NCBI RefSeq assembly: GCF_000812185.1
Contig: NZ_CP007026.1
Coordinates: forward strand, 1,059,107 to 1,123,106
DNA: 64,000 bases
Direction of reading: 5' to 3'
Source: Candidatus Nitrosopelagicus brevis
GTDB lineage: Archaea > Thermoproteota > Nitrososphaeria > Nitrososphaerales > Nitrosopumilaceae
Under the pieces are notes generated by a model. That model did not search any database. It was not told where the DNA came from and saw only the letters and a program-made list of their open reading frames with translations. The position numbers and the translations under genes were made by a program. The number at the start of each line of letters is the position of its first letter. Position 1 is the stretch's first letter. Shown in pieces: positions 1 to 27,737 of the stretch.

Positions 1-2
1 TG

Positions 3-635
3 ATTGATGTAGGTGATGCTATGGGTGCAAATGTAACTAATACTATGTGTGAAACTGTTGCACCATTAATTGAAAAATTAACAGGTGGAAAAACATTATT
101 GAGAATACTTTCAAATTATTCTACCAAACGAATGGTAACAGCAACTGCAACATTTGATAAAGATGCAGTTGGTGGAGAACAAGTCGTTAATGACATGATC
201 TCTGCATTTGATTTTGCTGATAATGATGTTTATCGTGCAGTTACTCATAACAAAGGTGTCATGAACGGTGCAATTTCTGTTGCAAATGCTACAGGACAAG
301 ACAGTCGTGCAATTGAAGCAGCTGCACATGCATATGCATCTCACACTGGACGATATCGCTCGTTAACGCAATGGTCAAAAGATAATGACGGACATCTTGT
401 TGGAAAATTTGAAATTCCTCTTTCAGTTGGAATTGTTGGAGGAGTTACTAATAATCACCCAATTGCAAAACTTTGTACTAAAATACTTAATCTAAAAAAT
501 GTCCAAGAATTATCATGTATTATTGCTTCAACCGGATTGGCACAAAATTTTGCTGCTATGCGTGCCTTAGCAACAGAAGGAATTCAGAAAGGTCACATGA
601 AATTACACGCTCGAAAAGAGGCAAGTAATTCCTAA
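3..635 (+). CDS. hmgA: HMG-CoA reductase, C-terminal part (5' end outside window)
   Basis: This is the C-terminal 210 residues of 3-hydroxy-3-methylglutaryl-CoA reductase, which makes mevalonate for archaeal isoprenoid lipids. The frame is open from base 3 and begins inside the cofactor/substrate motif IDVGDAMGAN. Further motifs are ILSNYSTKR, VGIVGGVTNNHPIAK and, close to the C-terminus, GHMKLHAR, which carries the catalytic histidine. The last two motifs resemble class II (bacterial-type) reductases rather than the class I enzymes of many archaea. The apparent ATG at 21 is internal, so it is not the real start. The gene ends about 70 bases before the his operon and on the same strand. The family call is firm; the class assignment is an inference from motifs. 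Confidence 0.93.
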   Translation: MDVGDAMGANVTNTMCETVAPLIEKLTGGKTLLRILSNYSTKRMVTATATFDKDAVGGEQVVNDMISAFDFADNDVYRAVTHNKGVMNGAISVANATGQDSRAIEAAAHAYASHTGRYRSLTQWSKDNDGHLVGKFEIPLSVGIVGGVTNNHPIAKLCTKILNLKNVQELSCIIASTGLAQNFAAMRALATEGIQKGHMKLHARKEASNS

Positions 636-677
636 CAAAATACCTAAAGAAAATTTTCTACTTGTTTTAACCATCCA

Positions 678-685
678 TTATATTA
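678..685 (+). promoter_or_regulatory. TATA-like box of the his operon
   Basis: The sequence TTATATTA is centred about 25 bases before the hisG ATG at 707. Archaeal TATA boxes lie about 25-30 bases upstream of the transcription start, so the his mRNA would start at or next to the start codon and be leaderless. Inferred from sequence and spacing only. Confidence 0.45.
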
Positions 686-706
686 CGTATAGTTGTTCGT
701 ATAGAA

Positions 707-1684
707 ATGTCCAAAGTAAAATTTGCAATCCCAAAAGGCAGTCTAGAAGAGGCTACATTCAAGCTTCTTGAAAGCTCATGGACTAGAGTTAGTAGAAAAA
801 GTAGAACGTATCGTGTTTTTTTAGATGATCCTGAAATTATGGTAAAAATGTTAAGACCTCAGGAAATTCCTAATCTGGTTTCAGATGGATTGTATGATGT
901 TGGAATTACAGGAAAAGATTGGATTAATGAAACCAAATCTGATGTTGATCCTTTACTTGATTTAGAATATGGAAAAATAAAATTAGTAATTGCAATTCCT
1001 GACACATTAAAATTCAAAAATTTTGATCAAATGATTGCAGAATATGCTAAAAAGAAAAAGATTCTCCGCCTATCTTCAGAATATCTCACAAATGCTTCAA
1101 AGTTTATCAAAAGTTGTAAATCATACAAAAAAGCATTTGGAAATAAGGATCCAATGATTATTACTCCTTGGATGAGAGTTGGAACAAACAAGAATGTTCA
1201 AATTCACTTATCATTTGGTGCAACTGAAGCAAAGCCTCCAGAAGATGTTGATGCAATAATGGATGTTACAGAAACTGGAACAACTTTAAAACAAAATGGA
1301 CTGAAAATTATAGATACTGTAATGAAATCCAGTGCACATCTAATTGCAAATAAACAATCTCTAAAAGATAAGAACAAACGTGAAAAAATATTTGATATTG
1401 TAACTTTAATGAGTGGTGCAGTTCAAGGAAAAAAATACTTACACTTGTATCTTAACATCAAAGAAAATAATTTGAAAAAGCTTCTCAAAGAACTTCCTTC
1501 ATTAAAGAAACCAACTGTTAGCCCATTAAGTGAAAAAGGTTGGGTAGGTGTAAACACTGTAATCTTAAAAACTGATTTCCACAAACTAATACCTAAACTT
1601 CGAAAGATTGCTCAAGGAATAGTTGTACATGAACCACGACAAATTCTTCAGTTAGAGGAGATAAAGCGTGACGAAGAAAATTGA
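707..1684 (+). CDS. hisG: ATP phosphoribosyltransferase, long form
   Basis: It catalyses the first and feedback-regulated step of histidine synthesis, ATP + PRPP to phosphoribosyl-ATP. The N-terminus (VKFAIPKGSLEEAT) and the PRPP-binding motif DVTETGTTLKQNGL near residue 185 identify HisG. At 325 aa it has the extra C-terminal domain of the long-form enzyme, so no HisZ partner should be needed. It is the first gene of an eight-gene cluster in which nearly all neighbours overlap or abut. Its stop codon overlaps the TTG start of hisD. Histidine inhibition through the C-terminal domain is expected from the family. Confidence 0.95.
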   Translation: MSKVKFAIPKGSLEEATFKLLESSWTRVSRKSRTYRVFLDDPEIMVKMLRPQEIPNLVSDGLYDVGITGKDWINETKSDVDPLLDLEYGKIKLVIAIPDTLKFKNFDQMIAEYAKKKKILRLSSEYLTNASKFIKSCKSYKKAFGNKDPMIITPWMRVGTNKNVQIHLSFGATEAKPPEDVDAIMDVTETGTTLKQNGLKIIDTVMKSSAHLIANKQSLKDKNKREKIFDIVTLMSGAVQGKKYLHLYLNIKENNLKKLLKELPSLKKPTVSPLSEKGWVGVNTVILKTDFHKLIPKLRKIAQGIVVHEPRQILQLEEIKRDEEN

Positions 1685-2934
1685 TCAAGATATTACAGGT
1701 TAGTAATGTTGACAGTTTTGTAGAAGCCAGACGTCAAAAAACCTCACAAAAAGATAGAAAAATTGTACAATCAATCTTAGATGATGTAAGAAAGAATGGT
1801 GATTCTGCTGTCAAAAAATACGAACAAAAATTCAATGGAAGAAAAACAACTCAATTACGTGTAAGTAAACAAGAAGCAAAAAATGCAAAGATTACTGATG
1901 CAGAATTTACTGCATTACAGTTATCCGCAATACGACTATCTAAATCACAAAGAATTCTAAACAAAAGTTTGATTCAATCTGTCAAGAAAATCTCTGATAT
2001 TTCATTTGTTCCTGTTCCAAGTGTTGGTTGTTACATACCTGGAGGTCAAGCCCGATATCCAAGTTCAGCAATTATGTCTGTAATTACTGCTGCTGAGGCT
2101 GGGGTAAAGAAAATTGTAGTTGTTTCTCCTCCAAATTCTGATGGAAAAATAGATCCTATGACAATTACTGTTGCTCAAAATTGTGGTGCAGAAATCTACA
2201 AAGTAGGTGGTGCACAAGCAATAGCTGCACTTGCATATGGAACAAAATCTATACCAAAAGTCGATAAAATTGTTGGGCCTGGAGGAAAGTTCGTTAGTAT
2301 TGCTAAATCAATTGTAAGTGAAGAAACCTCAATTGATATGATTGCAGGACCCACTGAACTTGGAATTATAGTTGATTCAACTGCCGATCCTGAATTGGTT
2401 GCATATGATCTTATTTCTCAAGCAGAGCACAGCAATGATACAATGTGTTTTGTTATTACGACATCAAAATCAAAGGCAACTCAAATTCAAAAATCACTCA
2501 AAAAAATAATTCCAAATATAGAGAGAAGTTCTATCGTAAAACAGAGTATCTCAAAGAATGGATTCATTGCAGTTTGTAAAAATCAAAAAGATGTAATTGA
2601 ATTAGCAAATAAAATTGCACCAGAACACATGGAATTAATGGTGAAAGGTGCTAAAGTACTATCCAAAAAAATCACTGGTCCTGGTTTAGTCTTAATTGGA
2701 AAAAATACTCCATCTTCTGCAAGTGATTATCTTTTAGGTACTAATCACATACTTCCAACTAATGGATTTGGTAGAACTAGAGGAGGATTATCTGTATTGG
2801 ATTTCTTAAAATTACAAACTACACTGGAAACAAAGAAGTCAGAACTTAGTAAAATTTCTGATAAATTAAAAATACTTACTGATGCAGAAGGATTACCAAA
2901 TCACTACAAAGCTGTGGAGAAGAGATTAAAATGA
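1681..2934 (+). CDS. hisD: Histidinol dehydrogenase
   Basis: It oxidises L-histidinol to L-histidine in two NAD-dependent steps using a zinc ion. Family signatures are VPSVGCYIPGGQ, GPTELGI, AEHS (near residue 247) and PEHMEL (near residue 313), which hold the zinc-site and catalytic residues. The length of 417 aa is normal. The start is a TTG overlapping the hisG stop by 4 bases: an in-frame TGA at 1669-1671 excludes a longer protein, and no ATG or GTG lies between. Expression is likely by translational coupling to hisG. Confidence 0.95.
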   Translation: MIKILQVSNVDSFVEARRQKTSQKDRKIVQSILDDVRKNGDSAVKKYEQKFNGRKTTQLRVSKQEAKNAKITDAEFTALQLSAIRLSKSQRILNKSLIQSVKKISDISFVPVPSVGCYIPGGQARYPSSAIMSVITAAEAGVKKIVVVSPPNSDGKIDPMTITVAQNCGAEIYKVGGAQAIAALAYGTKSIPKVDKIVGPGGKFVSIAKSIVSEETSIDMIAGPTELGIIVDSTADPELVAYDLISQAEHSNDTMCFVITTSKSKATQIQKSLKKIIPNIERSSIVKQSISKNGFIAVCKNQKDVIELANKIAPEHMELMVKGAKVLSKKITGPGLVLIGKNTPSSASDYLLGTNHILPTNGFGRTRGGLSVLDFLKLQTTLETKKSELSKISDKLKILTDAEGLPNHYKAVEKRLK

Positions 2935-3998
2935 ATAAGAAATTCCAAAAAAGATTAAATGAATTAGGAAATCTTTCTGGATATCAAAAACCAACTAAAG
3001 TTGATGATGTACTAAAACTAGACTCAAACGAAAATCTTGCAATTAAAAAAGAATTCCAAACTGAATTAATTCGTGAAGCTCAAAAACGTTCAGACATTAG
3101 AACATATCCCCTTGGCGGAGTTGAAAATTTAATCAGTTCTCTTGCAAAATATTTGAAAGTACCAAAAAATATGATTTCAGTTGGAAATGGTTCTGATCAA
3201 ATACTTGATTTAATTCTAGCAAATTTTTGTACAAAATTAACAAAAATCCTAACATCTGATCCTACATTTGGATTCTTTGAAGAAAGATGCAAACTTTACT
3301 CTATAAAACAAGTTACAATTCCATTTTCAAAAAATATGGATTTACGCATTGAAGATTTTATTAAAAAAGCAAAATCTGTAGATATGATTTATCTTGATTC
3401 TCCAAACAATCCAACTGGATTCCAATTTTCTAATAAAGACTTGGAAAAATTAATCAAATCTTTCTCTGGACCTATAATAATTGATGAAGCATATGGCGAA
3501 TTCTCAAATTCTTCTGTTCTTAGTCTAGTTAAAAAATACCCCAACGTGATTTTAGTAAAAACTTTGTCTAAAGCATTCGGATTGGCTGGATTACGTATAG
3601 GGTATATGATTGCCGACAAAAAATTTACTGAAGTTTTCTCAAATGTTATTCAATATCCATATCCACTAAATACACTCGCTATTGAATGTGGAATTTTGGC
3701 TATAGAAAAATCAAAACAAATTATATCTATTTTTGAAATCATCAAAAAACAGAGAGCGAGAATAATAAAAAATTTAAAAAAATATGATGCTTTTGATGTT
3801 TTTGATTCTAATGCAAATTTTGTATTATTTGATGCAAAAGGTGCTGATACACGAGTATACAATGCATTAATTGAACAAGGAATTTCTATTAGAAAACTTG
3901 GAAAATTGGCTTCACACAAAGGATGTTTGCGTGTAACAATTGGTACTCCTGATATGAACTCTAAATTTTTACTTGCAATACGTGATCTTATAGAATGA
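2931..3998 (+). CDS. hisC: Histidinol-phosphate aminotransferase
   Basis: This PLP enzyme converts imidazole-acetol phosphate and glutamate into histidinol phosphate. It is a fold-type I class II aminotransferase with LDSNEN near the N-terminus, LDSPNNPTG, and the PLP-lysine motif TLSKAFGLAGLRIG (Lys near residue 213). It overlaps hisD by 4 bases and the following HAD gene by 4 bases. The related enzyme CobD is encoded at 20564-21661; position inside the his operon makes HisC the right call here. Confidence 0.94.
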   Translation: MNKKFQKRLNELGNLSGYQKPTKVDDVLKLDSNENLAIKKEFQTELIREAQKRSDIRTYPLGGVENLISSLAKYLKVPKNMISVGNGSDQILDLILANFCTKLTKILTSDPTFGFFEERCKLYSIKQVTIPFSKNMDLRIEDFIKKAKSVDMIYLDSPNNPTGFQFSNKDLEKLIKSFSGPIIIDEAYGEFSNSSVLSLVKKYPNVILVKTLSKAFGLAGLRIGYMIADKKFTEVFSNVIQYPYPLNTLAIECGILAIEKSKQIISIFEIIKKQRARIIKNLKKYDAFDVFDSNANFVLFDAKGADTRVYNALIEQGISIRKLGKLASHKGCLRVTIGTPDMNSKFLLAIRDLIE

Positions 3999-4957
3999 CC
4001 AAAGAAATTTTCATTTCTAATGATATATCTCAGAAAATCCAGAAATTTGATTCAATAATATTTGATTGTGATGGAGTCTTAGTTGATATTAGAAATTCAT
4101 ATGATCATGCAATCAATAAAACAATTTCTGCAATAATGAAAGAATTGTTTAATGATGAAATAGGTGATGTCGTAACATCAAAAATTCACTTTGGTTTAAA
4201 ATCTGTTGGAGGATTTAATGATGAAGTTGCAGTAGTGTATGCTATAGTCATGACATTGGCTGCTTCCAAAAAGTCTGAAATTGAATTTGAAAAATTAATT
4301 GTTGATGTAATTAGTAACGCTAATGAATCTGGCATTAATTCTATTGATGATTATTTCAAAGACCGAAATATAGATCTTATAGAAATTAAATCAAAATTAG
4401 ATTATGAAAATTCTCGTAAAGTGAGTTATATACACAAAATTTTCAATCAATTGTTTTATGGACCAAAATTATATGAAGAAATTTCTAATGAAAAATCTCA
4501 ATTCTATGATGAACCCTTAATTGATCTAGATGATATAGTCTTAGATGACAATCTTATGCTTAAATTAAAAAATAGATTTGGTACTAAAATCTCTACTGTA
4601 ACTGGAAGAGGAAAATTTGCGTTTTCATATTCAATGAAAAAATTTTTAGATAATTTTGATATGGAAAACTCAGTATTTCTAGAAGATCGTCCATTGAACC
4701 TGGCAAAACCAAATCCCGAATCTCTAATAGAATCAATTTCTAAAATTAATTCGAAATGTTCTCTATACATTGGCGATTCAATGGAGGATCTTTTGATGGT
4801 TCAAAAATGTCAGGAACAAGGTTATGATGTATCATTTTGTGGTATTTATGGTTCTAGTGATGAACCGAAATTAAAATATGAATTATTTCAAAAGAATGAC
4901 GCACCATTTATTCTTGAATCAATACAAGAACTTCCGAAGGCATTAAATCTGGTATGA
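3995..4957 (+). CDS. HAD-superfamily phosphatase, likely histidinol-phosphatase
   Basis: This 320-aa HAD hydrolase carries the nucleophile motif DCDGVLVD at residues 24-31, a second motif TVTGRGK, and the metal-binding motif YIGDSMEDLLM. A large helical insert lies between motifs I and II and probably forms a cap domain that selects the substrate. The gene lies between hisC and hisB with a 4-base overlap upstream. No other histidinol-phosphatase (PHP-type HisK or HisB-N-type HAD) is present in the cluster. Removal of phosphate from histidinol phosphate, the step between HisC and HisD, is therefore the best guess. The fold is certain; the substrate is inferred from context. Confidence 0.8.
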   Translation: MTKEIFISNDISQKIQKFDSIIFDCDGVLVDIRNSYDHAINKTISAIMKELFNDEIGDVVTSKIHFGLKSVGGFNDEVAVVYAIVMTLAASKKSEIEFEKLIVDVISNANESGINSIDDYFKDRNIDLIEIKSKLDYENSRKVSYIHKIFNQLFYGPKLYEEISNEKSQFYDEPLIDLDDIVLDDNLMLKLKNRFGTKISTVTGRGKFAFSYSMKKFLDNFDMENSVFLEDRPLNLAKPNPESLIESISKINSKCSLYIGDSMEDLLMVQKCQEQGYDVSFCGIYGSSDEPKLKYELFQKNDAPFILESIQELPKALNLV

Positions 4958-4976
4958 TGGAAACTAAACAAGTATT

Positions 4977-5564
4977 ATGAAACCTAGAAAAACAAGCATC
5001 AAACGAGAAACCAAAGAAACCAGTGTTTCAATAACCATTAATCTGGATGGAACTGGCAAAACCACAATCAATACAGGTATAAAATTCCTAGATCACTTGA
5101 TTGGTTCTTTTGGTAAGCACTCGATGATGGATTTGGTTGTTAAGGCAAAATCAAGAGATGGAATTGAACACCACTTGATTGAAGATACAGGCATAACTAT
5201 TGGAAGTGCAATTGATAAGGCGTTAGGAAATAGAAGTGGAATTACAAGATTCAGTTTCTCATCTGTACCTATGGATGAAGCTCTAGCTGAAACATCACTT
5301 GATTTAGTAAAAAGACAATATCACAAAATAACTCTCTCAACCAAAAGAACAAAGATTGAGGGTATATCCAAAGAAGATCTAGAACACTTTTTCTTCTCTC
5401 TTGCGCAAAATCTGAATTGTTGTATTCATGTTACTGTAAAGTATGGAGATAATGATCACCACAAAGTTGAAGCTGCCATAAAATCAATGGCAGTAGCAAT
5501 ACGTAATGCAGCATCAAATGATCCTAAACAAAAAGGTATACCAAGTACTAAAGGCGCAATGTAA
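4977..5564 (+). CDS. hisB: Imidazoleglycerol-phosphate dehydratase
   Basis: It dehydrates imidazoleglycerol phosphate to imidazole-acetol phosphate. It is a stand-alone 195-aa dehydratase without the N-terminal phosphatase domain of enterobacterial HisB. Metal-binding histidine motifs are HHLIEDTGI near residue 64 and [12 protein letters not shown] near residue 158, plus an early [12 protein letters not shown] segment. The TAA stop shares bases with the ATG of hisH, so the two are translationally coupled. Confidence 0.95.
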
Positions 5565-6172
5565 TGGTAAGTGTAGCAATATTTGATTATGGAGCAGGAA
5601 ATATCTTTAGTCTAAAGACTTCACTTGAAAAAAATGGTGCCAGTGTTGATATTATTACCAGTTTTGATCAATCAAAAAAATATGATGGTTTATTGTTGCC
5701 TGGTGTAGGAAATTTTGATCCTGCAATTAGAAGCATTAGAGATTATTCTGCATTGGGATTCCATGATTTTGTAAAAGAAAAAATTCCAGTTCTTGGAATA
5801 TGTCTAGGAATGGAGATGTTTTTCAAGCAAAGTCAAGAAGGAAAGGAAAAAGGTCTAGATGTAATGAATGGCGAAGTTGTATTACTTCCAAATGATATGA
5901 AAATTCCACATATGGGTTGGAATAGTTTAGAAATTACAAAAGATAGTAAAATTCTTGAAGGAGTAGAGAATAATTCATGGGTTTACTTCGTTCATTCCTA
6001 TAGGGCCAAGCCTGATAATTCAGATATTATTGTGGCTAATGCAGATTATGGAATAAAAGTTCCTGCTGTTGTAGAAGATAATTTATTTTTCGGAACTCAA
6101 TTTCATCCTGAAAAATCAGGTAAAATTGGATCATTAATGATTCAAAACTTTCTTAGAGTGTGCAGTAAATGA
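5564..6172 (+). CDS. hisH: Imidazole glycerol phosphate synthase, glutaminase subunit
   Basis: This class I glutamine amidotransferase supplies ammonia to HisF. The N-terminus AIFDYGAGNIFSL, the nucleophile elbow GICLGM (Cys near residue 79) and FHPEKSG near residue 180 give the complete Cys-His-Glu triad. Length 202 aa is typical. It overlaps hisA by 4 bases. HisH works only in complex with HisF, which is encoded two genes downstream. Confidence 0.95.
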   Translation: MVSVAIFDYGAGNIFSLKTSLEKNGASVDIITSFDQSKKYDGLLLPGVGNFDPAIRSIRDYSALGFHDFVKEKIPVLGICLGMEMFFKQSQEGKEKGLDVMNGEVVLLPNDMKIPHMGWNSLEITKDSKILEGVENNSWVYFVHSYRAKPDNSDIIVANADYGIKVPAVVEDNLFFGTQFHPEKSGKIGSLMIQNFLRVCSK

Positions 6173-6897
6173 AAATAATCCCTGCAATTGATTTGATGGA
6201 CGGTAAAGTTGTCCGCTTGTATAAAGGTGATCCTAAAAACAAAATAATTTACAGTAACAATCCTGTAGAAATTGCAAAAAAATGGGAATCACTTGGAGGT
6301 GATATCTTACATATTGTTGATTTAGATGCAACCTTAGGCAGTGGTGAGAATTCTAAAATTATTAAAGAAATTTCTGAAAACACATCAATTCCGTTGCAGG
6401 TTGCAGGTGGCCTACGAACTGAAGAAAAAATTTCTGAAGTTCTAGATTTTGCTTCCCGTGCCGTAATTGGAACAATTGCAATGCAACTTAAAGAAAGTGA
6501 GCAAGATAATATTCTAAGTGATTTTATCCAAACATTTGGTTCTGAACGAATTGTAATTTCCATTGATCATGTGGATGGAAAAATTGTTACTCATGGATGG
6601 CAAAATAACACTGGTATTGATCTATATGATGCAACAAATGAGTTTGTCAACTATGGGTTTACCGAATTTTTAACCACAAATGTTTCAAAGGATGGGACCT
6701 TGGAAGGACCTGATATTGAATCACTAAAAAAAATATGCCAAATAAAAAAGTGTAATGCAATTGCCAGTGGTGGAATATCTAAAATGCAAGATATTCAAGA
6801 TGTTAATGAAATTGATCCATTTGGAGTAATTCTAGGAAAGGCACTTTATGAAGGGCTAGTTTCAATAGAGGAGGCAAAGAAAATTGGTTCTAACTAA
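6169..6897 (+). CDS. hisA: ProFAR isomerase (phosphoribosylformimino-AICAR-phosphate isomerase)
   Basis: This (beta/alpha)8-barrel enzyme performs an Amadori rearrangement of ProFAR to PRFAR. Diagnostic segments are IIPAIDLMDGKVVRL at the N-terminus, VAGGLRTEE in the first half and the phosphate-binding loops TTNVSKDGTLEGPD and ASGGISKMQDI in the second half. At 242 aa it is full length. It overlaps hisH by 4 bases and hisF by 14 bases. Confidence 0.95.
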   Translation: MKIIPAIDLMDGKVVRLYKGDPKNKIIYSNNPVEIAKKWESLGGDILHIVDLDATLGSGENSKIIKEISENTSIPLQVAGGLRTEEKISEVLDFASRAVIGTIAMQLKESEQDNILSDFIQTFGSERIVISIDHVDGKIVTHGWQNNTGIDLYDATNEFVNYGFTEFLTTNVSKDGTLEGPDIESLKKICQIKKCNAIASGGISKMQDIQDVNEIDPFGVILGKALYEGLVSIEEAKKIGSN

Positions 6898-7687
6898 GCG
6901 TATAATTCCGTGTTTGGATGTTGCAAATGGACGAGTTGTAAAAGGATTAAATTTTGAATCAATAAAAGATGCAGGTGATCCTGTACAATTAGCTGAAAAA
7001 TATTCTAATGAAGGCGCAGATGAACTAGTTTTTCTAGATATTACTGCCTCATCTGAACAACGTGAAACCATAAAATCACTAGTTAAAAAAATTGCAGAAG
7101 TAATTGACATTCCATTTACGGTTGGCGGTGGAGTTAAATCATTACAACATGCAAGAGATATTTTGCTTAATGGTGCTGATAAAGTTGCAATTAACACTGG
7201 AGCTGTAAAAAATCCTGAAGTCATTACTGAACTAATGGAATTATTTGGCAAACAATGTGTTGTAGTTGCAATAGATTCTAGAAGAAATTATAATTTAGAG
7301 AAAGGAAAAAATATTTTTTCAGAAAATGGAAAACAATTTTGGTTTGAAGTATTCATTTATGGCGGAAAAAAGGGTACTGGATTAGATGTTATTGATTGGT
7401 CTAAAAAAATAGAAGAATTAGGTGCAGGTGAAATACTACTTACAAGTATTGATAGAGATGGTACAAAAGATGGATATGATACTTTATTAACAAATGAAAT
7501 TGTTCATGCAGTTGGAATTCCTGTTATTGCATCTGGTGGATGTGGGAAACCTGAAGATATGATTGACATTTTTAAAAATACTGAAGTTAATGCTGCATTA
7601 GCTGCATCAATTTTTCACTATGAAACACATTCTGTTAATCGTGTAAAAGAAATGATTAAAGAAAATGGAATTGATGTTAGATACTGA
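6884..7687 (+). CDS. hisF: Imidazole glycerol phosphate synthase, cyclase subunit
   Basis: It uses HisH-derived ammonia to turn PRFAR into imidazoleglycerol phosphate and AICAR. Signatures are RIIPCLDVANGRVVKG, FTVGGGVKS, VVAIDSRR, LLTSIDRDGTKDGYD and ASGGCGKPEDM, including both catalytic aspartates. The start is TTG at 6884 with a GAGG ribosome-binding sequence about 10 bases upstream, inside the end of hisA. The 267-aa length is normal. It is the last gene of the operon, since the next gene is convergent with one base between the stops; no hisE or hisI follows. Confidence 0.95.
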   Translation: MVLTKRIIPCLDVANGRVVKGLNFESIKDAGDPVQLAEKYSNEGADELVFLDITASSEQRETIKSLVKKIAEVIDIPFTVGGGVKSLQHARDILLNGADKVAINTGAVKNPEVITELMELFGKQCVVVAIDSRRNYNLEKGKNIFSENGKQFWFEVFIYGGKKGTGLDVIDWSKKIEELGAGEILLTSIDRDGTKDGYDTLLTNEIVHAVGIPVIASGGCGKPEDMIDIFKNTEVNAALAASIFHYETHSVNRVKEMIKENGIDVRY

Positions 7688-7688
7688 A

Positions 7689-8279
7689 TTATGGATCAGG
7701 GTCGGTTCCTGGAGTTGATCCTGGAAACTTTTGACTTGCTGGCATTTCACCAGGTAATGTAGGATCAAGTTCATATGCTACTGAACATTCTACAAAATAG
7801 CTTTCATGGTTAGGTAAAATATCCGGAAGCATTTCAAAATAGATTTTAGACATTTCATATCCTCTAAACATAACTGTCCATTCTCCAACTAGTTGTTCTT
7901 TTTCACATAAATTTTTTGATAGTAATAATTGTGGTTTAAAATATTTTTTATGAAAATCTCTAACGTCACCATTAAATGCAATTGTATCGTATAACTTTCC
8001 TTCTGGAGTGTAAAAATCAACATGTCCTTTGTCTTGTGGTCTAAGATCTTTTATAACCACGTACACATGTTCGCCTAAAAGATATTTGTCTTTGTTAATT
8101 TGTAACGGACCTAAAATTTGTGGGTTATCTGGATAAACAACACTTGCCACTTTTCCTCCTTTTTCATAATACTCTTCAACAGAAACTTGTTGCCACATTG
8201 TTTCGTTTACTTGAAAAACTATTACTCCAAGAATTACTGCAATTCCTATTCCTGTAGCAATACCTACATTTCGATTCAT
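7689..8279 (-). CDS. Membrane-anchored protein of unknown function
   Basis: Not recognised as a named family. From the ATG at 8279 the protein has 196 residues: a short basic start, one hydrophobic segment at about residues 5-23 (VGIATGIGIAVILGVIVF), then a probably extracellular domain with a proline-rich tail (LPGEMPASQ, GSTPGTDPDP). The outer part contains the segment HVYVVIKDLRPQDKGHVDFY, which looks like a beta-sandwich of the kind common in thaumarchaeal surface proteins. A TTG 42 bases upstream (8321) would add 14 residues, but the ATG places the membrane segment at the N-terminus. It is convergent with hisF. Confidence 0.7.
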   Translation of the reverse strand: MNRNVGIATGIGIAVILGVIVFQVNETMWQQVSVEEYYEKGGKVASVVYPDNPQILGPLQINKDKYLLGEHVYVVIKDLRPQDKGHVDFYTPEGKLYDTIAFNGDVRDFHKKYFKPQLLLSKNLCEKEQLVGEWTVMFRGYEMSKIYFEMLPDILPNHESYFVECSVAYELDPTLPGEMPASQKFPGSTPGTDPDP

Positions 8280-8513
8280 AAATCTCTCCAATTTTTTAAT
8301 TCTATAAAACTTTCTTATCAAAAATCTTTACTGATTTTTTTATTTTTTTATAGAAATTATCTTATCCTCTCTCTAAAAATGAATTTTTTTCTTCTTTTTT
8401 AATAAAATTGGAAATTTATAATCAGATATCATTCTAATTTTAGACAATAAAATTAAGTAATACTTAATCTAATATTAGGATATTTTATGAACTAATTAGA
8501 ATCTGATCTGAAT

Positions 8514-9728
8514 ATGGGTAAAAATCACCTTCAATGTAGAGAATGTAAAAAAGAGTATGAACCTACTTTCAAGTATATTTGTGATGAATGTTTTGGTCCA
8601 TTAGATGTCAAGTATGATTTTCCATCTGTGAATAAAGATACCTTTAGAGATAGAGAAAAGACATACTGGCGTTATTTTGAATTATTACCAATTATAGATA
8701 AAAAAAATATTGTAAGCATAGAGGCAGGAATGACTCCATTAGTTAAGGCAGAAAAACTTGGTAAAGAATTAGGACTAAACAATCTTTACATCAAAAATGA
8801 TTCAGTTAATCCAACATTTTCATTCAAAGATAGACCTGCAGGTGTTGCAATTTCTAAAGCTAAGGAATTTGGTTTAGAATCTGTTGGATGTGCATCAACT
8901 GGTAATTTAGCATCTGCAACTGCTGCACATGCAGCAAAAGCAAACATGCCATGTTATATCTTTGCACCAAGTAATATTGAAACTGCAAAAATTGCTCAAG
9001 CATTATCATATGGTGCAGAATACATCTCTGTTGACGGTACATATGATGAGGCAAACAGAATTGCAGCACAAATTGGTGATAGAAAAGGAGTTGGTGTGGT
9101 AAATATCAATATGCGTTCTTACTATGTTGAAGGATCCAAAACTTTAGCTTATGAAGTTGCAGAACAACTAGACTGGAATGTTCCAAATCATCTTATAGTT
9201 CCTACAGGAAGTGGTGCTATGTTAAATGCAATATGTAAAGGATTTGAAGAATTACAATCTGTCTCTTTACTTGATGATCTATCATCAATGCACATGCATT
9301 GTGCACAACCACAGGGATGTGCTCCAATAGTTGATGCATTTGATAAGAATGTTGATAAAGTAACTGCTGTTGAACAACCAAATACTGTTGCAAAAAGTTT
9401 AGCAATTGGTGATCCTGGTGACGGTCGTTATGTTCTAAAAAGATTAAAACAATACAATGGAGTTGCAAAACAAACAAATGATAAAGAAATTTTAGATGCA
9501 ATCTTACTCTTAGCAAAAACAGAGGGAATCTTTACTGAACCTGCAGGTGGTGTTTCTGTTTCTGTTTTGAAAAAAATGGTTGAAGAAGGAAAAATTGACA
9601 AAGATGAACCTACTGTATGTTATGTAACTGGTAATGGTTTGAAAGCTACCGAATCAATTATGACTGTACTCAAAAAACCACAAGTAATGCAAGCTGATGT
9701 TGCAAAAATCTCAGCAGTGATAGGGTGA
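8514..9728 (+). CDS. thrC: Threonine synthase
   Basis: It converts O-phosphohomoserine to threonine using PLP. An N-terminal zinc-ribbon-like part (CRECKKEY near residue 7, then CDEC) is followed by the fold-type II core with the PLP-lysine motif SFKDRPAG (Lys near residue 104). The phosphate-binding segments TGNLASATAAHAAKA and PTGSGAML are also present. Length 404 aa is as expected. Aspartate-semialdehyde dehydrogenase, earlier in the same pathway, is at 21741. The next gene follows with no gap, so the two are probably cotranscribed. Confidence 0.93.
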   Translation: MGKNHLQCRECKKEYEPTFKYICDECFGPLDVKYDFPSVNKDTFRDREKTYWRYFELLPIIDKKNIVSIEAGMTPLVKAEKLGKELGLNNLYIKNDSVNPTFSFKDRPAGVAISKAKEFGLESVGCASTGNLASATAAHAAKANMPCYIFAPSNIETAKIAQALSYGAEYISVDGTYDEANRIAAQIGDRKGVGVVNINMRSYYVEGSKTLAYEVAEQLDWNVPNHLIVPTGSGAMLNAICKGFEELQSVSLLDDLSSMHMHCAQPQGCAPIVDAFDKNVDKVTAVEQPNTVAKSLAIGDPGDGRYVLKRLKQYNGVAKQTNDKEILDAILLLAKTEGIFTEPAGGVSVSVLKKMVEEGKIDKDEPTVCYVTGNGLKATESIMTVLKKPQVMQADVAKISAVIG

Positions 9729-9736
9729 ATCATATA

Positions 9737-11068
9737 ATGACTAAAGTTACTTTTACAATTCCTTCAGTCTTGAATGCAGGTGGTGGTGAAAAGAAAACTG
9801 AACTTGAAGCCTCAACCCTTAAGGAATCATTTGAAAAAATCTCTGAAATTATGGGTGATGACTTTAAGAGAAAAGTTCTAGAAGCAGACGGTTCACCACG
9901 TTCTCTAATTAACATTTACATCAATGGAAAAAATGCTGCATTTGATAATGGTCTTGATACTCCGTTGAATGAAAATGATGAAGTATACATTTTACCTGCA
10001 GTAGCAGGCGGTTCTGATCTGTCAGAAAAAGAATTGGATAGATTCTCACGTCAAGTAATGTTAGAACAAATTGGGTATGATGGTCAATTAAAATTAAAAA
10101 ATTCTAAAGTTTGTGTTGTTGGTGTTGGTGGTTTAGGAAATCCAATTACAACTAGACTTGCAACAATGGGAGTTGGTAAATTACGAATTGTTGATAGAGA
10201 TGTTATAGAATTATCAAACTTACATAGACAAACAATGTTTGATGAAGATGATGTCGGTCAAGTAAAAGTAGAAGTTGCACAAAAGAAACTAAAAAAATTA
10301 AATCCTGAAGTAGAAATAGAAGCTTTACCAATTTCTATTAATGATTATAATGCATCTGATGTTATTGATGGATGTGATGTTGTAATTGATGCTCTTGATA
10401 GCGTTAATGCACGTTATGCATTAAACAAAGCATGTGTAGAAAAAAATATTCCATTTGTAACTGGTGCTGCAGTTGGTGTTACAGGACAAGTCTTTACAGT
10501 TTTACCAAAAGAAACTGCATGTTATCATTGTATGTTTCCTACATTGGATGAAGATGCAATGCCAACTTGTAGTATTCAAGGTGTACATCCTCCAATACTT
10601 TCTATTGTTGGTGGAATAGAAGTGTATGAAGCTGTTGACGTTTTAATTGGTAAGAAACCAAAGTCTTCTGAAAAATTCATATCAATTGATTTAGAAAATT
10701 TAGAATTTTCATCTGTAAGAACCTTCAAACAAGATGCATGTTCTGTTTGTGGTTCAGGTAAAAAAATTGAAACACCAAAACAGGAATTAATTTTAGAAGA
10801 ATTATGTGGACGTAACATGGGAAAGAGAACATTCTCAATTACACCAACATACGAAGTCAATCTTGATGTAGCCGATGTCACTGCATTGGCTCAAGAAAAG
10901 GGATTCAAAGTTGAAAATCAGGGAGACTTAGGATTATCTATGCGAACAAATGATCTTTCTGTCAATTTTATGAAGAAAGGTTCTGCAGTAGTTGTTGGTC
11001 CTGATAATGAAGAAGAAGCAATCACTCTTTTCAAGAGCCTTCTAGGCACAAAATCTATTAGTGTATAA
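9737..11068 (+). CDS. MoaD/ThiS-like ubiquitin-fold domain fused to an E1-like adenylyltransferase
   Basis: Residues 1-90 are a beta-grasp MoaD/ThiS-like domain ending in PAVAGG, the usual C-terminal di-glycine of sulfur carriers and SAMP proteins. Residues from about 100 are a ThiF/MoeB/UbaA-type E1 with the nucleotide-binding motif GVGGLGNP (about residue 128), DALDSVNARYALN, and zinc cysteine pairs CYHC (about 260) and CSVC (about 334). A further C-terminal domain of about 80 residues follows. E1 enzymes of this family adenylate the C-terminal glycine of the carrier for thiolation or protein conjugation. Here carrier and E1 are one chain. ATG 9737 with GGGTGA 8 bases upstream is preferred over the GTG at 9725. 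Confidence 0.85.
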   Translation: MTKVTFTIPSVLNAGGGEKKTELEASTLKESFEKISEIMGDDFKRKVLEADGSPRSLINIYINGKNAAFDNGLDTPLNENDEVYILPAVAGGSDLSEKELDRFSRQVMLEQIGYDGQLKLKNSKVCVVGVGGLGNPITTRLATMGVGKLRIVDRDVIELSNLHRQTMFDEDDVGQVKVEVAQKKLKKLNPEVEIEALPISINDYNASDVIDGCDVVIDALDSVNARYALNKACVEKNIPFVTGAAVGVTGQVFTVLPKETACYHCMFPTLDEDAMPTCSIQGVHPPILSIVGGIEVYEAVDVLIGKKPKSSEKFISIDLENLEFSSVRTFKQDACSVCGSGKKIETPKQELILEELCGRNMGKRTFSITPTYEVNLDVADVTALAQEKGFKVENQGDLGLSMRTNDLSVNFMKKGSAVVVGPDNEEEAITLFKSLLGTKSISV

Positions 11069-11135
11069 CCAAAATTAGAAATTTTCATTCTAAACGTTTG
11101 TAATAATTACATTTTTCTGTACTTTTTTTACAATA

Positions 11136-11161
11136 TTACATAGATTACATAGACTATGTAG
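11136..11161. repeat. ACATAG-type repeats upstream of the first S-layer gene
   Basis: Two direct copies of TTACATAG (11136-11143 and 11145-11152) are followed by the inverted copy CTATGTAG (11154-11161). Matching copies lie upstream of the second S-layer gene at 13234-13289, so these are probable operator elements shared by the two genes. Confidence 0.55.
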
Positions 11162-11240
11162 TTAATTATTACAATAAATTTATTATTTTTACGAATATTT
11201 TTGAGAAAATAGATCAAAAATGTGTAATTCGTTCATTAAG

Positions 11241-11249
11241 GTTAAATAC
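11241..11249 (+). promoter_or_regulatory. TATA box of the first S-layer gene
   Basis: GTTAAATAC lies about 30 bases before the ATG at 11276 and is the downstream end of a block of about 42 bases (around 11208-11249). That block is repeated almost exactly, in mirror orientation, before the second copy. Conservation of the block while flanking bases differ supports a functional core promoter. Confidence 0.55.
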
Positions 11250-11275
11250 TTAATTTTAAAAATTATGCTAATAAC

Positions 11276-12211
11276 ATGAATAAAGAATTAGGACGAAAAA
11301 TAACTAGTCTAACCTTAATGACTATTATGCTCACTTGGTCAGCAGCCATGGGCTTTTCTGGCTCATTTATGCCAGAAGCTGAGGCAGCTAACCAATACTT
11401 GTGGGTATCAGTCGAAGACGCCGGACAAGGAAACTTTTACGGCGGTCAGGTCTTAGAAATCGTAGTTACTGATCCAGCTATTAACAGACTGGATGAGGCA
11501 TACGGTATGCCTGACGTTACAATTGACGGTAAGAAAGTTATCATGGCACAAGGTGTTGACGGTTCTTGGTATGCATACATTGCTGATGGCAGTTTTGCAA
11601 CCTCAATCGACAGCAACTATGCAGAAGTTGAAGATGGAAAAGGCGCAGACTATGGTCGTGTTTGTAAGAACAATACTCCTCTAGAGTATGGTCCAAACAA
11701 CAACGCTGTAGCAACATTGATTCCTTCAGAATCAAGAGGTGTTTTCCTTCCATTCCAATTAGGTAACGGTACATCAGCAGCAGCAAACACTGGTGAAGAA
11801 TATGCAAATCATGCAGGTGTCTTCACAAATATTGGTGCTGCATCTCAAAGTAGTTACACCCAAGGAGAAGGAATTACCACAGAATGTGGTAGTTCAATCA
11901 GTACAGGCGGTGTACCATTTGAGTATTTGAACGCAACCTCAAAGGTTCACGTTTCTGGTTTACCAACCATGAGTAATGCAACAGGATCTCAAGTACAAAG
12001 TGGTTCAGCAACAGGTGTAAACGCATCTGATCAAGCTATTAACAACGTTGTCAGAGAAGCCAGAGCATTATCAAACGGAACAACTACTGATTACTATGGT
12101 AACATTGCCTTAGGCCCAAATATGTGGCCTTTCATACAACTCTACGACTTTACTAGATATCAATCATATGACTTAGTTTACGAAAGAGGCGGAGCTCCGC
12201 CTCTTTCGTAA
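11276..12211 (+). CDS. S-layer protein, N-terminal fragment (copy 1)
   Basis: The sequence matches the start of the major Nitrosopumilus S-layer (cell-surface lattice) protein as I recall it. It has a signal peptide with a conserved GRKITSLTLMTIMLTW segment ending near AEA (residue 37), then beta-rich repeats starting NQYLWVSVEDAG. Known S-layer proteins of this group are several times longer than the 311 codons here. The reading frame ends only because the sequence folds back on itself at 12194/12195: the last six codons (from about 12195) are the reverse complement of the preceding ones. The real gene is therefore almost certainly longer and cut by the junction. The conserved upstream region contains a TATA box and ACATAG repeats. 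Confidence 0.8.
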   Translation: MNKELGRKITSLTLMTIMLTWSAAMGFSGSFMPEAEAANQYLWVSVEDAGQGNFYGGQVLEIVVTDPAINRLDEAYGMPDVTIDGKKVIMAQGVDGSWYAYIADGSFATSIDSNYAEVEDGKGADYGRVCKNNTPLEYGPNNNAVATLIPSESRGVFLPFQLGNGTSAAANTGEEYANHAGVFTNIGAASQSSYTQGEGITTECGSSISTGGVPFEYLNATSKVHVSGLPTMSNATGSQVQSGSATGVNASDQAINNVVREARALSNGTTTDYYGNIALGPNMWPFIQLYDFTRYQSYDLVYERGGAPPLS

Positions 12212-13113
12212 ACTAAGTCATATGATTGATATCTAGTAAAGTCGTAGAGTTGTATGAAAGGCCACATATTTGGGCCTAAGGCAATGTTACCATAGTAATC
12301 AGTAGTTGTTCCGTTTGATAATGCTCTGGCTTCTCTGACAACGTTGTTAATAGCTTGATCAGATGCGTTTACACCTGTTGCTGAACCACTTTGTACTTGA
12401 GATCCTGTTGCATTACTCATGGTTGGTAAACCAGAAACGTGAACCTTTGAGGTTGCGTTCAAATACTCAAATGGTACACCACCTGTACTGATTGAACTAC
12501 CACATTCTGTGGTAATACCAGTTCCTTGGGTGTAACTACTTTGAGATGCAGCACCAATATTTGTGAAGACACCTGCATGATTTGCATATTCTTCACCAGT
12601 GTTTGCTGCTGCTGATGTACCGTTACCTAATTGGAATGGAAGGAAAACACCTCTTGATTCTGAAGGAATCAATGATGCTACAGCGTTGTTGTTTGGACCA
12701 TACTCTAGAGGAGTATTGTTCTTACAAACACGACCATAGTCTGCGCCTCTTCCGTCTTCTACTTCTGCATAGTTTTTGTCGATTGTGGTTGCTTTCTTGC
12801 CATCAGCAATGTATGCATACCAAGAACCGTCAACACCTTGTGCCATGATAACTTTCTTACCGTCAATTGTAACGTCAGGCATACCGTATGCCTCATCCAG
12901 TCTGTTAATAGCTGGATCAGTAACTACGATTTCTAATACCTGACCGCCGTAGAATTTACTTCCACCGGCGTCTTCGACTGATACCCACAAGTATTGGTTA
13001 GCTGCCTCAGCTTCTGGCATGAATGTCATGCTGAAGCCCATGGCTGCTGTCCAAGTGAGCATAATAGTCATTAAGGTTAGACTAGTTATTTTTCGTCCTA
13101 ATTCTTTATTCAT
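12178..13113 (-). CDS. S-layer protein, N-terminal fragment (copy 2)
   Basis: Inverted near-copy of the gene at 11276. It is identical in protein sequence over about the last third but differs at scattered positions in the first two thirds, for example GFSMTF instead of GFSGSF, GGSKFYGG instead of GQGNFYGG, and ADGKKATTIDKN instead of ADGSFATSIDSN. These are systematic in-frame changes, so it is a true paralogue or strain variant rather than sequencing noise. The gene is cut at the 12194/12195 fold-back. Its own promoter (13131-13172 region) is conserved with copy 1. Expected product: a signal-peptide-bearing surface-lattice protein. Confidence 0.78.
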   Translation of the reverse strand: MNKELGRKITSLTLMTIMLTWTAAMGFSMTFMPEAEAANQYLWVSVEDAGGSKFYGGQVLEIVVTDPAINRLDEAYGMPDVTIDGKKVIMAQGVDGSWYAYIADGKKATTIDKNYAEVEDGRGADYGRVCKNNTPLEYGPNNNAVASLIPSESRGVFLPFQLGNGTSAAANTGEEYANHAGVFTNIGAASQSSYTQGTGITTECGSSISTGGVPFEYLNATSKVHVSGLPTMSNATGSQVQSGSATGVNASDQAINNVVREARALSNGTTTDYYGNIALGPNMWPFIQLYDFTRYQSYDLVYERGGAPPLS

Positions 13114-13143
13114 GTTATTACAATTTTGTCAAAATTTTGGTAT

Positions 13144-13152
13144 TTAACCTTA
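13144..13152 (-). promoter_or_regulatory. TATA box of the second S-layer gene
   Basis: Read on the minus strand, the mirror copy of the GTTAAATAC element lies about 30 bases upstream of the ATG at 13113. The block of about 42 bases shared with copy 1 extends to about 13184. Between the TATA box and the ATG the two copies differ. Confidence 0.5.
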
Positions 13153-13233
13153 ATGAACGAATTACACATTTTTGATCTATTTCTTCAAAAAAATAGAATA
13201 TTCTAAGTTTATTGAACTAATTATTACAAAAAA

Positions 13234-13508: not shown

Positions 13509-15140
13509 CTATCCCATTGGAGGCATTCCAGGAGGCATACCGCCGCCTGAGCCGCCTGAAATAGCAATTACATCATCGATTCTGAGAATCATTGATGCAG
13601 CCTCTGTCGCAGATTTGATAATTTGTTCTTTAACTACAACTGGTTCAACAATATTTTGAGTTAGCATATCAGCTACTCTTCCTTCTTTTGCATTAATTCC
13701 GCTCCATTTCTTCCCTTCACTTTGTCTTGCACGTAACTTAACCATAGTATCAATTGGATCCATACCTGCATTTTCTGCAATTGTTAATGGAATAATTTCT
13801 AATGCTTCTGCAAACTTGTTAATTGCTAACTGCTGTCTTCCTTCAAATCGTTCTGACCAGTCTTTCAAAAATGATGCAAGTAATGCTTCTGGTGCTCCAC
13901 CACCTGCAACAATTTCTGGTTTTTCAATTACATCTTTAACAACCATTAATGAGTCATGTATTGAGCGGTCTACTTCATCAACTACACGTTGAGAACCACC
14001 GCGAATTAGTAATGTTACAGACTGTGGGTTTTTACATCCTTCAATGAAAACCCATTTATCAGATTCAACTTTCTTTTGTTGTACCAAGTTTGCACCACCT
14101 AAATCTTTTTCAGAAATATCTTCAATGTTAGAAGTAATACGTCCACCTGTTGCCTTTGCAAGTTTTGTCATGTCACTTTCTTTTACACGTCTAACAGCTA
14201 AGATTCCATGTTTTGATAAGAAATGTTGTGCCATGTCATCAATTCCTTTTTGGCAGATGACAACGTTTGCACCAATTGAATGAATTTTATCGACCATTGT
14301 TTTGATCATTCTATTTTCTTCTTCAAGAAACATTTGCATTTGTGTTGGATCATTAATTCTAATTTCTGCACTCATCTCTGTTTTTTCAACTTCCATTGCA
14401 GTGTTAAGTAAAGCAATTTTTGCTTGTTGAATTTTTGTTGGCATGCCAGAGTGTACAACTTCTTTATCCAAAACAATTCCTTTAATCAATGCAGTATCTT
14501 GAATTGAACCACCAGCCTTTTTCTCAACTTTAAGATTATCAAGATCAATAGATGCTTTGTTATCTCTTGTTTCAGTTATGCTCATGATTGAATCAACAAC
14601 AATTTTTGATAGAGGTTCACTATCTTCAGAAATTAATTTTGATTCCATACTTGTACTTGCAATTTTTAATAATGTCTCTCTATCATCTGCGGTAACTTTT
14701 TTAGAAATTTCTGCTAAAACTTCTAATGCTTTTTCAGATGCAGCTTGAAATCCTTCAATGATAACTGAAGAGTGCACATCTTTTTTTAGTAATTCTTCTG
14801 CTTTTGCCAATAATGTTCCAGCAAAAATAACAGATGATGTTGTTCCATCACCAACTTCAGTATCAATAGTTTTTGAAATTTCAATCATCATTTTAGCAGC
14901 TGGATGTTGTGCATCAATTTCTTTTAGAATTGTTGCACCATCATTTGTAATTGTAACGTCACCTAGAGAATCAACAAGCATTTTGTCAAGTCCACGAGGA
15001 CCTAAACTTGATTTAACAATATCTGCAACCATTTTTGCAGCCATGATATTGTTTTTCTGAGCGTCTTTACCTTTTTCCTGTAAAGCGCTTTCTTTTAGGA
15101 CTAAAACAGGTCCATTTGGTGTTTGTTGTATTGAGGCCAC
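13509..15140 (-). CDS. ths: Thermosome (group II chaperonin) subunit
   Basis: Subunit of the double-ring ATP-driven chaperonin that folds cytosolic proteins in archaea. The family signatures [28 protein letters not shown] and [17 protein letters not shown] (ATP site) lie in the N-terminal equatorial domain. GGGAPEALL is in the C-terminal equatorial domain. The C-terminus ends in the usual glycine/methionine-rich tail ([15 protein letters not shown]) that lines the ring cavity. Length 543 aa is typical. It stands alone, with a 25-base gap to the adenine deaminase gene behind it on the same strand. Confidence 0.96.
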
Positions 15141-15165: not shown

Positions 15166-16938
15166 TTATAGTTTAGTTTGGATCGTGGGGATGAATTGTC
15201 TGGATTTTACATCTACTATGCCACTGTACAGAATTCGGATATCTGGTAATGCCAAGAAAGGTAGGAATAATGGCATTAGGTGAGGTTTCTTGAATTTACA
15301 ACCAGAATCAACTAAAACATCATTAATTTTTGTAAAGTTTTTTGTCACCTTATCAATCGGATCAGTTGAGAGTATTCCTCCTAATTGAAATGGCAGAGAT
15401 GCTAATGTTTTTCCATCTTTTACAACGATTAAACCTCCTTGTGATTTAGTAAGCTTGTTACATGCATCAGCCATGTCACTTTCATTTGAACCAATAACTA
15501 TCATATCATTTTCATGAAAACTCCATGTAGATGCAAATGCACCAATATCAGCACCAAAATTTTCTAAAAATCCAACAGTCTTAGTTTTGCTTCCAAATGT
15601 TCTATCCAATGCAGCAACCTTCCAAATATCTTTGTCATATGAAGCAGTAACATTCGAGTTTGTAACATCCAAGTCGGCTGAACTTTTTTTTGTAACAATT
15701 TCAGTTCTCATTAAAATTATATTCACAGTTTCAACATTGTTTTTCGAAGTAACATTGAAACTTTTTGGTTGTAGTTTTGGAATCTTGACTGTTTTTTTCA
15801 TCCAAGTTGGTACTTTAGGTGTATGAATTTTTGCAACAATTTTTCCATTAGAAACAACAATTTTTCCACCTAGAATTACTTTGTTAATTTTTATTTTTTT
15901 GTAATCATCTAAAATTAAAATGTCTGCAACTTTTCCAGGACCGATTCCACCAAAATCACTTCCCATTTTATAATAATCAAAACAGTTTCTTGATGCTATA
16001 GAAATAGCATCAATTGGATTCATTCCAAGTTTTATAGATTCTCTAACACAATGATCAATATGACCTATGTTAGATATATCAAAAGGATCTACACCGTCAG
16101 AACAAAACATCAATCTATTGTTGTATATTTTTTTAGATAATACAAGTGGAACAATTTCTTTCAAGTCTCTACGAATTGAACCTTCTCTAATCATTACCCA
16201 CATTCCAAGACGTAGTCGTTCTAACACTTGATCATAGTTTATTGGTTCATGACACGAAAAAATTCCTGATGCAATGTACGAATTTAATTTTTTCCCACTT
16301 GCACCAGCGGTATGACCATTAATTATGCAATTATTTTCATGCATTTGTTTTAATGACTTGATTGTTTTAGGATCTCGCTTTGTAACTTTTGTCCAAGAAA
16401 ACACTTCTCCTAATCCAACAACAGACCGCAAATCAATTGCTTGTTTTTCTTCTTTAATACTGAGAGTTTTTCCATGACTGAATTTTCTGTCAACAGGTAA
16501 GCCACCAGGAATAGTATGAAAAAATCTCATTGGTAGATTTTCTGTTTGTCGTAAAAATTCCTTAAAACCACGATATCCACAGACGCTCACAATGTCAATA
16601 GAATCTGGGAAAAGTGAAGTTACGCCATGTAGTAATGATTTTTTTACAAATTCTGCAGGAGTTACAAAATGATCAATGTGTATGTGAGGATCTACAAAAC
16701 TTGGACAAACATGTTTATTTTTTACATCTAGAACTTTGGTCTTTGGACCAAGTGTGTGAGATGCATCTTCACCAACAAATGCAATTCTATCGTTTTTGAT
16801 AGATATCTGAATTTTTTCCTGAATTTCATTTGTATAGACATTGATTAGTGAGCAATTTTGCAAAATTAGATCTGCATAATCATCACCCACAGACACAGAA
16901 TTAATTTCAGATAATGTTGAAGAAAGTTTTGTGTGCAT
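15166..16938 (-). CDS. ade: Adenine deaminase
   Basis: This amidohydrolase-superfamily enzyme converts adenine to hypoxanthine and ammonia in purine salvage. The metal-binding motif FVDPHIHIDH is followed by INGHTAGASG, FSCHEP and a catalytic FCSDGVDPFDI aspartate segment. A long C-terminal region (after about residue 330) typical of Ade-type enzymes contains LPFQLGGILSTDP and LALPDIRILYSG. At 590 aa it matches the family. It is divergent from rpl44e, with a promoter region of about 70 bases between them, and probably reads through into the thermosome gene. Confidence 0.9.
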   Translation of the reverse strand: MHTKLSSTLSEINSVSVGDDYADLILQNCSLINVYTNEIQEKIQISIKNDRIAFVGEDASHTLGPKTKVLDVKNKHVCPSFVDPHIHIDHFVTPAEFVKKSLLHGVTSLFPDSIDIVSVCGYRGFKEFLRQTENLPMRFFHTIPGGLPVDRKFSHGKTLSIKEEKQAIDLRSVVGLGEVFSWTKVTKRDPKTIKSLKQMHENNCIINGHTAGASGKKLNSYIASGIFSCHEPINYDQVLERLRLGMWVMIREGSIRRDLKEIVPLVLSKKIYNNRLMFCSDGVDPFDISNIGHIDHCVRESIKLGMNPIDAISIASRNCFDYYKMGSDFGGIGPGKVADILILDDYKKIKINKVILGGKIVVSNGKIVAKIHTPKVPTWMKKTVKIPKLQPKSFNVTSKNNVETVNIILMRTEIVTKKSSADLDVTNSNVTASYDKDIWKVAALDRTFGSKTKTVGFLENFGADIGAFASTWSFHENDMIVIGSNESDMADACNKLTKSQGGLIVVKDGKTLASLPFQLGGILSTDPIDKVTKNFTKINDVLVDSGCKFKKPHLMPLFLPFLALPDIRILYSGIVDVKSRQFIPTIQTKL

Positions 16939-27268: not shown

Positions 27269-27284
27269 AACAAGACTTTTTCAA

Positions 27285-27737
27285 TTATGCCTTTATTGCT
27301 ATCGGTTCAGACTTTGCCTCAAATGCTTCTTTGACTAGATCTCTTGCTTTTTTGATGGTTATACGTTCTTCAGATTTTCTGAGTTCTTCAACGGTCTTTG
27401 TTTTTGTCCATCCTTCAGAGACAGCAGTTTCTAATGTTGTTTTTACAAAATCAGATGATACTCCTGCTTCTGCCCCAGTTCCTGCTGCAACTAGTGGTGC
27501 TTCAACAGTTTGGGCTTTTAGAGATGCTGCGTCGGCCTCTACTCTTGCTCTGAGTTTAGCCTTGTACTTCAAGTTACGTGGTTTAGTTCTTAAACGGTAA
27601 CCGCAACATGGGCACCAAAGTCCTTCCCAATTAATGAAGATTTCACAGATCTGACATCGTCTTTGACCAGATGCATAACGTCCAGTTCCGACTGGTTTTT
27701 GTGCTTTGTATCTAGAACAGATTCCTTTACATGTCAT
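27285..27737 (-). CDS. Zinc-finger protein of a thaumarchaeal type
   Basis: 150-aa protein with an N-terminal cysteine-rich module (CKGIC, CQIC, then CPCCGYRLRTKP) that should bind one or two zinc ions. It is followed by a basic stretch and an alanine-rich acidic C-terminal half. I know similar N-termini (MTCKGICSRYKAQKP) from Nitrosopumilus-type genomes, without assigned function. The cysteine pattern and basic region suggest nucleic-acid binding; that is an inference. An AT-rich intergenic of about 170 bases upstream (27738-27906) holds the probable promoter and nothing else visible. Confidence 0.7.
   Translation of the reverse strand: MTCKGICSRYKAQKPVGTGRYASGQRRCQICEIFINWEGLWCPCCGYRLRTKPRNLKYKAKLRARVEADAASLKAQTVEAPLVAAGTGAEAGVSSDFVKTTLETAVSEGWTKTKTVEELRKSEERITIKKARDLVKEAFEAKSEPIAIKA

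Follow-up and report, generated by a model that had tools for sequence, protein, structure and literature searches.

A perfect palindrome between two truncated S-layer genes of Candidatus Nitrosopelagicus brevis is very probably one of two matched false joins bounding a reversed 27.5-kb block

The spacer-free palindrome at which two S-layer reading frames meet in the 64,000-nucleotide window (the whole stretch of DNA that was analysed, C1:1059107-1123106 of a single 1,232,128-bp contig, 99.5% complete) is, judging from sequence comparison with relatives, very probably a misassembly, being one of two matched false joins that bound a 27.5-kb block placed backward, and not a real cruciform locus. 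The contig appears to be the reference assembly for an archaeon that oxidizes ammonia and is very abundant in the sea and, as assembled, it carries no complete S-layer copy and has four truncated pieces instead of two proteins of ~1,780 aa, together with what would be a false 27.5-kb inversion. Proteomic, glycosylation, structural and synteny studies using this contig would overlook ~1,075 residues in each of two genes for a major surface protein, and might deduce a rearrangement that did not take place.

Positions 11909-12194 and 12195-12480 of the window are perfect reverse complements, with arms of 286 bp, no spacer and a first mismatch at offset 287 from the centre (12194/12195, which is C1:1071300/1071301). 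The palindrome is thus present as the earlier note had claimed, although the repeat enclosing it is larger than stated there. Arms of 831 nt, 97% complementary and with 0 nt between them, were found around the centre, and an outer arm pair (161 nt, 91%) extends the inverted repeat to 11195 and 13194, past both start codons; the whole 11195..13194 repeat holds the 5' parts and upstream regions of both S-layer genes, 91-97% alike outside the perfect core. The runner-up spacer-free palindrome within the 64-kb window had arms of only 8 nt and the longest one in 958 kb of other sequence compared had arms of 12 nt, and arms of 286 nt would be expected about 10^-154 times in the window, so chance is excluded. 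When the complete 201-bp junction was searched in 31 genomes of the genus, the genome itself was the sole match, relatives matching one half only, and the 26-bp core of the junction was absent from the viral contigs searched, which contained just 68-73% relatives of the C-terminal part of the S-layer protein.

The two ORFs facing each other, 11276-12211 (+) and 12178-13113 (-), have 311 aa each and share the terminal peptide ...YERGGAPPLS, which is produced by the fold-back. At the same protein position relatives read ...YERGG(A/T/N)DET... and reach a total length of ~1,780-1,790 aa (one is cut by a contig end), in agreement with the claim of the earlier note that both frames end only through the fold-back. 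Copy A (ThiF side, 11276..12194, + strand) and copy B (thermosome side, 12195..13113, - strand) each consist of the N-terminal ~306 codons, apparently truncated at a false join; both align to residues 1-303 of full-length relatives and diverge at the join, where relatives have GGCGGAGCAGACGAA and the window has GGCGGAGCTCCGCC.

A full-length relative, L003, matched PDB 8c8k_A (the N. maritimus S-layer protein) over residues 264-1789 with E = 0, and the halves found in the window were 81-85% identical to L003. Pfam gave no family for the N-terminal half, the C-terminal half or the full-length relative, so the identification rests on the PDB match, according to which the protein is the S-layer subunit (NmSLP family). 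An S-layer match was found in 61/61 family genomes searched, and each of the 20 others among them that consist of one contig has an S-layer ORF whose length is 1,535 aa or more (in G040 a TGA was flagged). A strain with no intact S-layer copy would be exceptional. The genome studied here has no full-length ORF (~1,500-1,800 aa), only the 311-aa ORFs of the window and C-terminal pieces of ~410 aa elsewhere, and these short ORFs are attributed to the misjoin. The G040 match (G040:C1:717465-720491) carries one in-frame TGA, which may represent a sequencing error or a broken gene. A separate protein of ~400 aa (C1:243520-244602 in this genome, with similar ORFs in most family genomes searched) resembles S-layer residues ~1417-1788 at ~38-50% identity and is predicted to be a paralogue in which the C-terminal domains stand alone.

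A search of the genome with residues ~301-1790 of L003 revealed the C-terminal ~409 codons of the S-layer gene in two back-to-back copies, C1:1042525-1043751 (-) and C1:1043748-1044974 (+), outside the window on the same contig. They lie in a second palindrome, centred 27.55 kb to the left of that of the window, which is also perfect and spacer-free (2 x 1,297 bp, C1:1042452-1045046, L021:5953-8547, centre C1:1043749/1043750) and whose arms run ~67 bp beyond the S-layer stop codons. Its neighbours are the p331 and subtilase genes to the left and ROK and guaA to the right. At this junction relatives have AGAGGTGAACTC and the contig has GAGTTCATGAACTC. All four halves are collinear with full-length relatives as far as their own junction and then diverge. 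The second palindrome would likewise be an assembly error of this contig that needs correction.

S-layer residues ~304-1381 were found nowhere in the single-contig genome (99.5% complete), a loss of ~3.2 kb (~1,075 residues) per gene. This upholds the suggestion of the earlier note that an assembly artefact involving two partly identical long S-layer genes had left kilobases missing. The two copies read identical over the 286 bp that precede the first junction and over the 1,297 bp that follow the second one, and this identity could itself be partly a collapsed consensus. We infer that the missing middles are near-identical in both copies; if they are identical too, the repeat would measure ~4.8 kb, too long for short reads.

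The gene neighbourhoods of relatives place the two copies at different loci. In the window, thrC (8514..9728, +), which lies near copy A in relatives, and a ThiF-type gene (9725..11068, +), the immediate upstream neighbour of copy A in relatives, are located on one side, and the thermosome subunit gene (13509..15140, -), the immediate upstream neighbour of copy B in relatives, followed by an amidohydrolase (adenine-deaminase-like) gene (15166..16938, -), on the other. The order in L003 and L005 was amidohydrolase, thermosome, S-layer (1,790 and 1,791 aa, respectively), ROK and guaA, and in L006 (genome G015) it was thrC, ThiF, S-layer (1,779 aa), p331 and subtilase, this order being found also in G017, G012 and G010. 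Full-length S-layer genes of relatives are codirectional at two loci, and each relative contig crossing either locus agrees with this. The arm of copy B has the variant GSKFYGGQ, common to L003, L005 and L007 at the same locus, and the arm of copy A has NFYGGQ, as in L004 and L006, also at the same locus; this match with same-locus relatives suggests that both flanks are genuine and that a fold-back of a single copy is unlikely.

Both loci are carried in one orientation by an 87-kb contig of a relative (L037, L038 and L006; G004 = G015), in the order thermosome, S-layer remnant, ROK, guaA ... thrC, ThiF, full S-layer, p331, subtilase. The two S-layer positions are separated by ~25 kb. Copy B is reduced there to its last ~41-51 codons; this remnant and the 3' region lie between thermosome and ROK (L037:11092-11495, G015:C9 ~27269-27392), and it would be accounted for if one copy was truly deleted or if the assembly collapsed here too. 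No relative with both S-layer genes intact on one contig was found among those searched. At least nine genus assemblies (G006, G009, G016, G018, G020, G023, G025, G028 and G034) have a contig that starts or ends inside the S-layer gene, as expected of an unresolved repeat. In G016, the ends of contigs C62 (L078) and C17 (L079) both stop inside S-layer C-termini that are 90.7% identical to each other; L079 does not adjoin ROK and guaA, so that a relocation of copy B in this lineage is possible.

When the contig was aligned to this 87-kb contig, C1:1036500-1043749 and 1072437-1084998 matched on the minus strand, and C1:1044863-1066801 and 1066870-1071299 on the plus strand, showing that the block runs in the opposite direction to the flank on either side. 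The breakpoints of this inversion (1043749/50 and 1071299-1071302) are the palindrome centres, which bound the 27.5-kb block C1:1043750-1071300; its right-hand part is window 1..12194, and the rest, with the second palindrome, lies to the left of the window. Four S-layer ends are present, namely C-terminal A on the left flank, C-terminal B and N-terminal A on the left and right of the block, and N-terminal B on the right flank, and the only order that pairs N-terminal with C-terminal halves is the one in which the block is flipped between its flanks. Flipping it restores both ThiF-S-layer-p331-subtilase and thermosome-S-layer-ROK-guaA, the middles of the genes still being missing.

The following course of events would explain these observations. 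The organism would possess two full-length codirectional S-layer genes ~25 kb apart and near-identical over much of their length. The assembly may have stalled at this long direct repeat, so that both copies were cut off by contig ends at one and the same position of the gene, and the intervening 27.5-kb piece would then have been joined in reverse, setting N-terminal A against N-terminal B at window 12194/12195 and C-terminal A against C-terminal B at C1:1043749/1043750, while the middle ~3.2 kb of both genes was dropped. The overlap at both joins is at most a few bases, which counts against this account, as does the failure to find a relative with both copies intact on one contig; a chimeric read could have supplied the joining sequence. 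In the literature searched, no report of this misjoin was found.

It is very unlikely that both palindromes (572 and 2,594 bp) are real, that is, that the 27.5-kb block is inverted in the strain and both genes lost their middles, leaving no full-length copy. The deposited contig does read so, and its gross completeness is 99.5%. Nevertheless, recombination between codirectional repeats leads to deletion and between inverted repeats to inversion with whole repeats kept, so neither would yield N-N plus C-C joins, and a natural inversion by recombination was ruled out by this geometry of the joins. The absence of a spacer at both joins means that the two gene copies were broken at identical positions, twice; such a coincidence is readily understood if contigs ended at a position common to both repeats, but is improbable if the DNA broke in the cell. 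Moreover, a long S-layer gene is kept in all the other single-contig family genomes, the junction was unmatched in 30 genus relatives and in the viral contigs, and perfect palindromes of great length are known to be sites of breakage (PMC7999016).

The earlier note had favoured two long convergent S-layer genes, arranged tail to tail and collapsed at this one spot with several kilobases missing. Genuine convergent S-layer pairs do exist, since the closed genome G036 contains two of them (L131 and L132, G036:C1 ~133500-143600 and ~2024360-2034040). The 3' ends of these pairs face each other 0.7-1.3 kb apart (spacers of 725 and 1,311 bp) with ~88% identity near the centre, whereas the junction studied here joins 5' parts with no spacer and perfect arms. 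In addition, the C-terminal halves are located 27.5 kb away beside their own downstream neighbours, and in all relatives the genes are codirectional at two loci, ~25 kb apart and with different neighbours. The claim was not borne out, the convergent layout being ruled out by synteny with the G036 pairs as a control, and we consider such an arrangement extremely improbable.

Just as improbable is a fold-back chimera of one locus, generated by MDA amplification or by a hairpin adapter and built into the contig. Such chemistry does give palindromic and inverted-chimeric reads (PMC13265396), but in a fold-back both arms derive from a single copy. Here the arms come from two loci that are ~3% different, with distinct neighbours and locus-specific variants, and one block has a separate palindrome at each end; a simple fold-back was thus ruled out and the folding by amplification suggested in the earlier note is not favoured.

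The misassembly preferred here may be compared with known systems. Natural long perfect palindromes and cruciform-prone sites also have perfect arms without a spacer; however, the arms found here belong to the coding regions of two different genes, both interrupted at one and the same codon, there is a matching palindrome elsewhere, and the structure is absent from relatives, with the junction in 0/30 of them. The sap locus of Campylobacter fetus is an invertible S-layer locus. Loci of this type resemble the present one in that an apparently inverted block has an S-layer homologue at either end, but they recombine at inverted repeats and keep whole genes, with terminal inverted repeats and at least one intact expressed gene, whereas here no intact copy exists in the genome and the repeats of relatives are codirectional. 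As in repeat-induced misjoins and inverted contig placements, a contig with long near-identical repeat copies at its two ends would have been set in the wrong orientation, the interior of the repeat is missing and the break positions coincide in both copies; in contrast, such relocations usually result in a gap or in a single chimeric repeat, and here both putative false joins are perfect spacer-free palindromes.

N. maritimus has two close S-layer paralogues, Nmar_1547 and Nmar_1201, which are 91% identical (PMC11153153), and the presence of two close paralogues in one organism is likewise suggested here. In comparison with NmSLP (Nmar_1547; PDB 8C8K, 1,734 aa), the window contains only ~306 residues from the start of each copy, where conservation is lowest, and the remainder is missing or 27.5 kb away. 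Two S-layer paralogues with a locus-specific N-terminus but an identical-reading C-terminus resemble the N. maritimus pair and deserve a long-read assembly.
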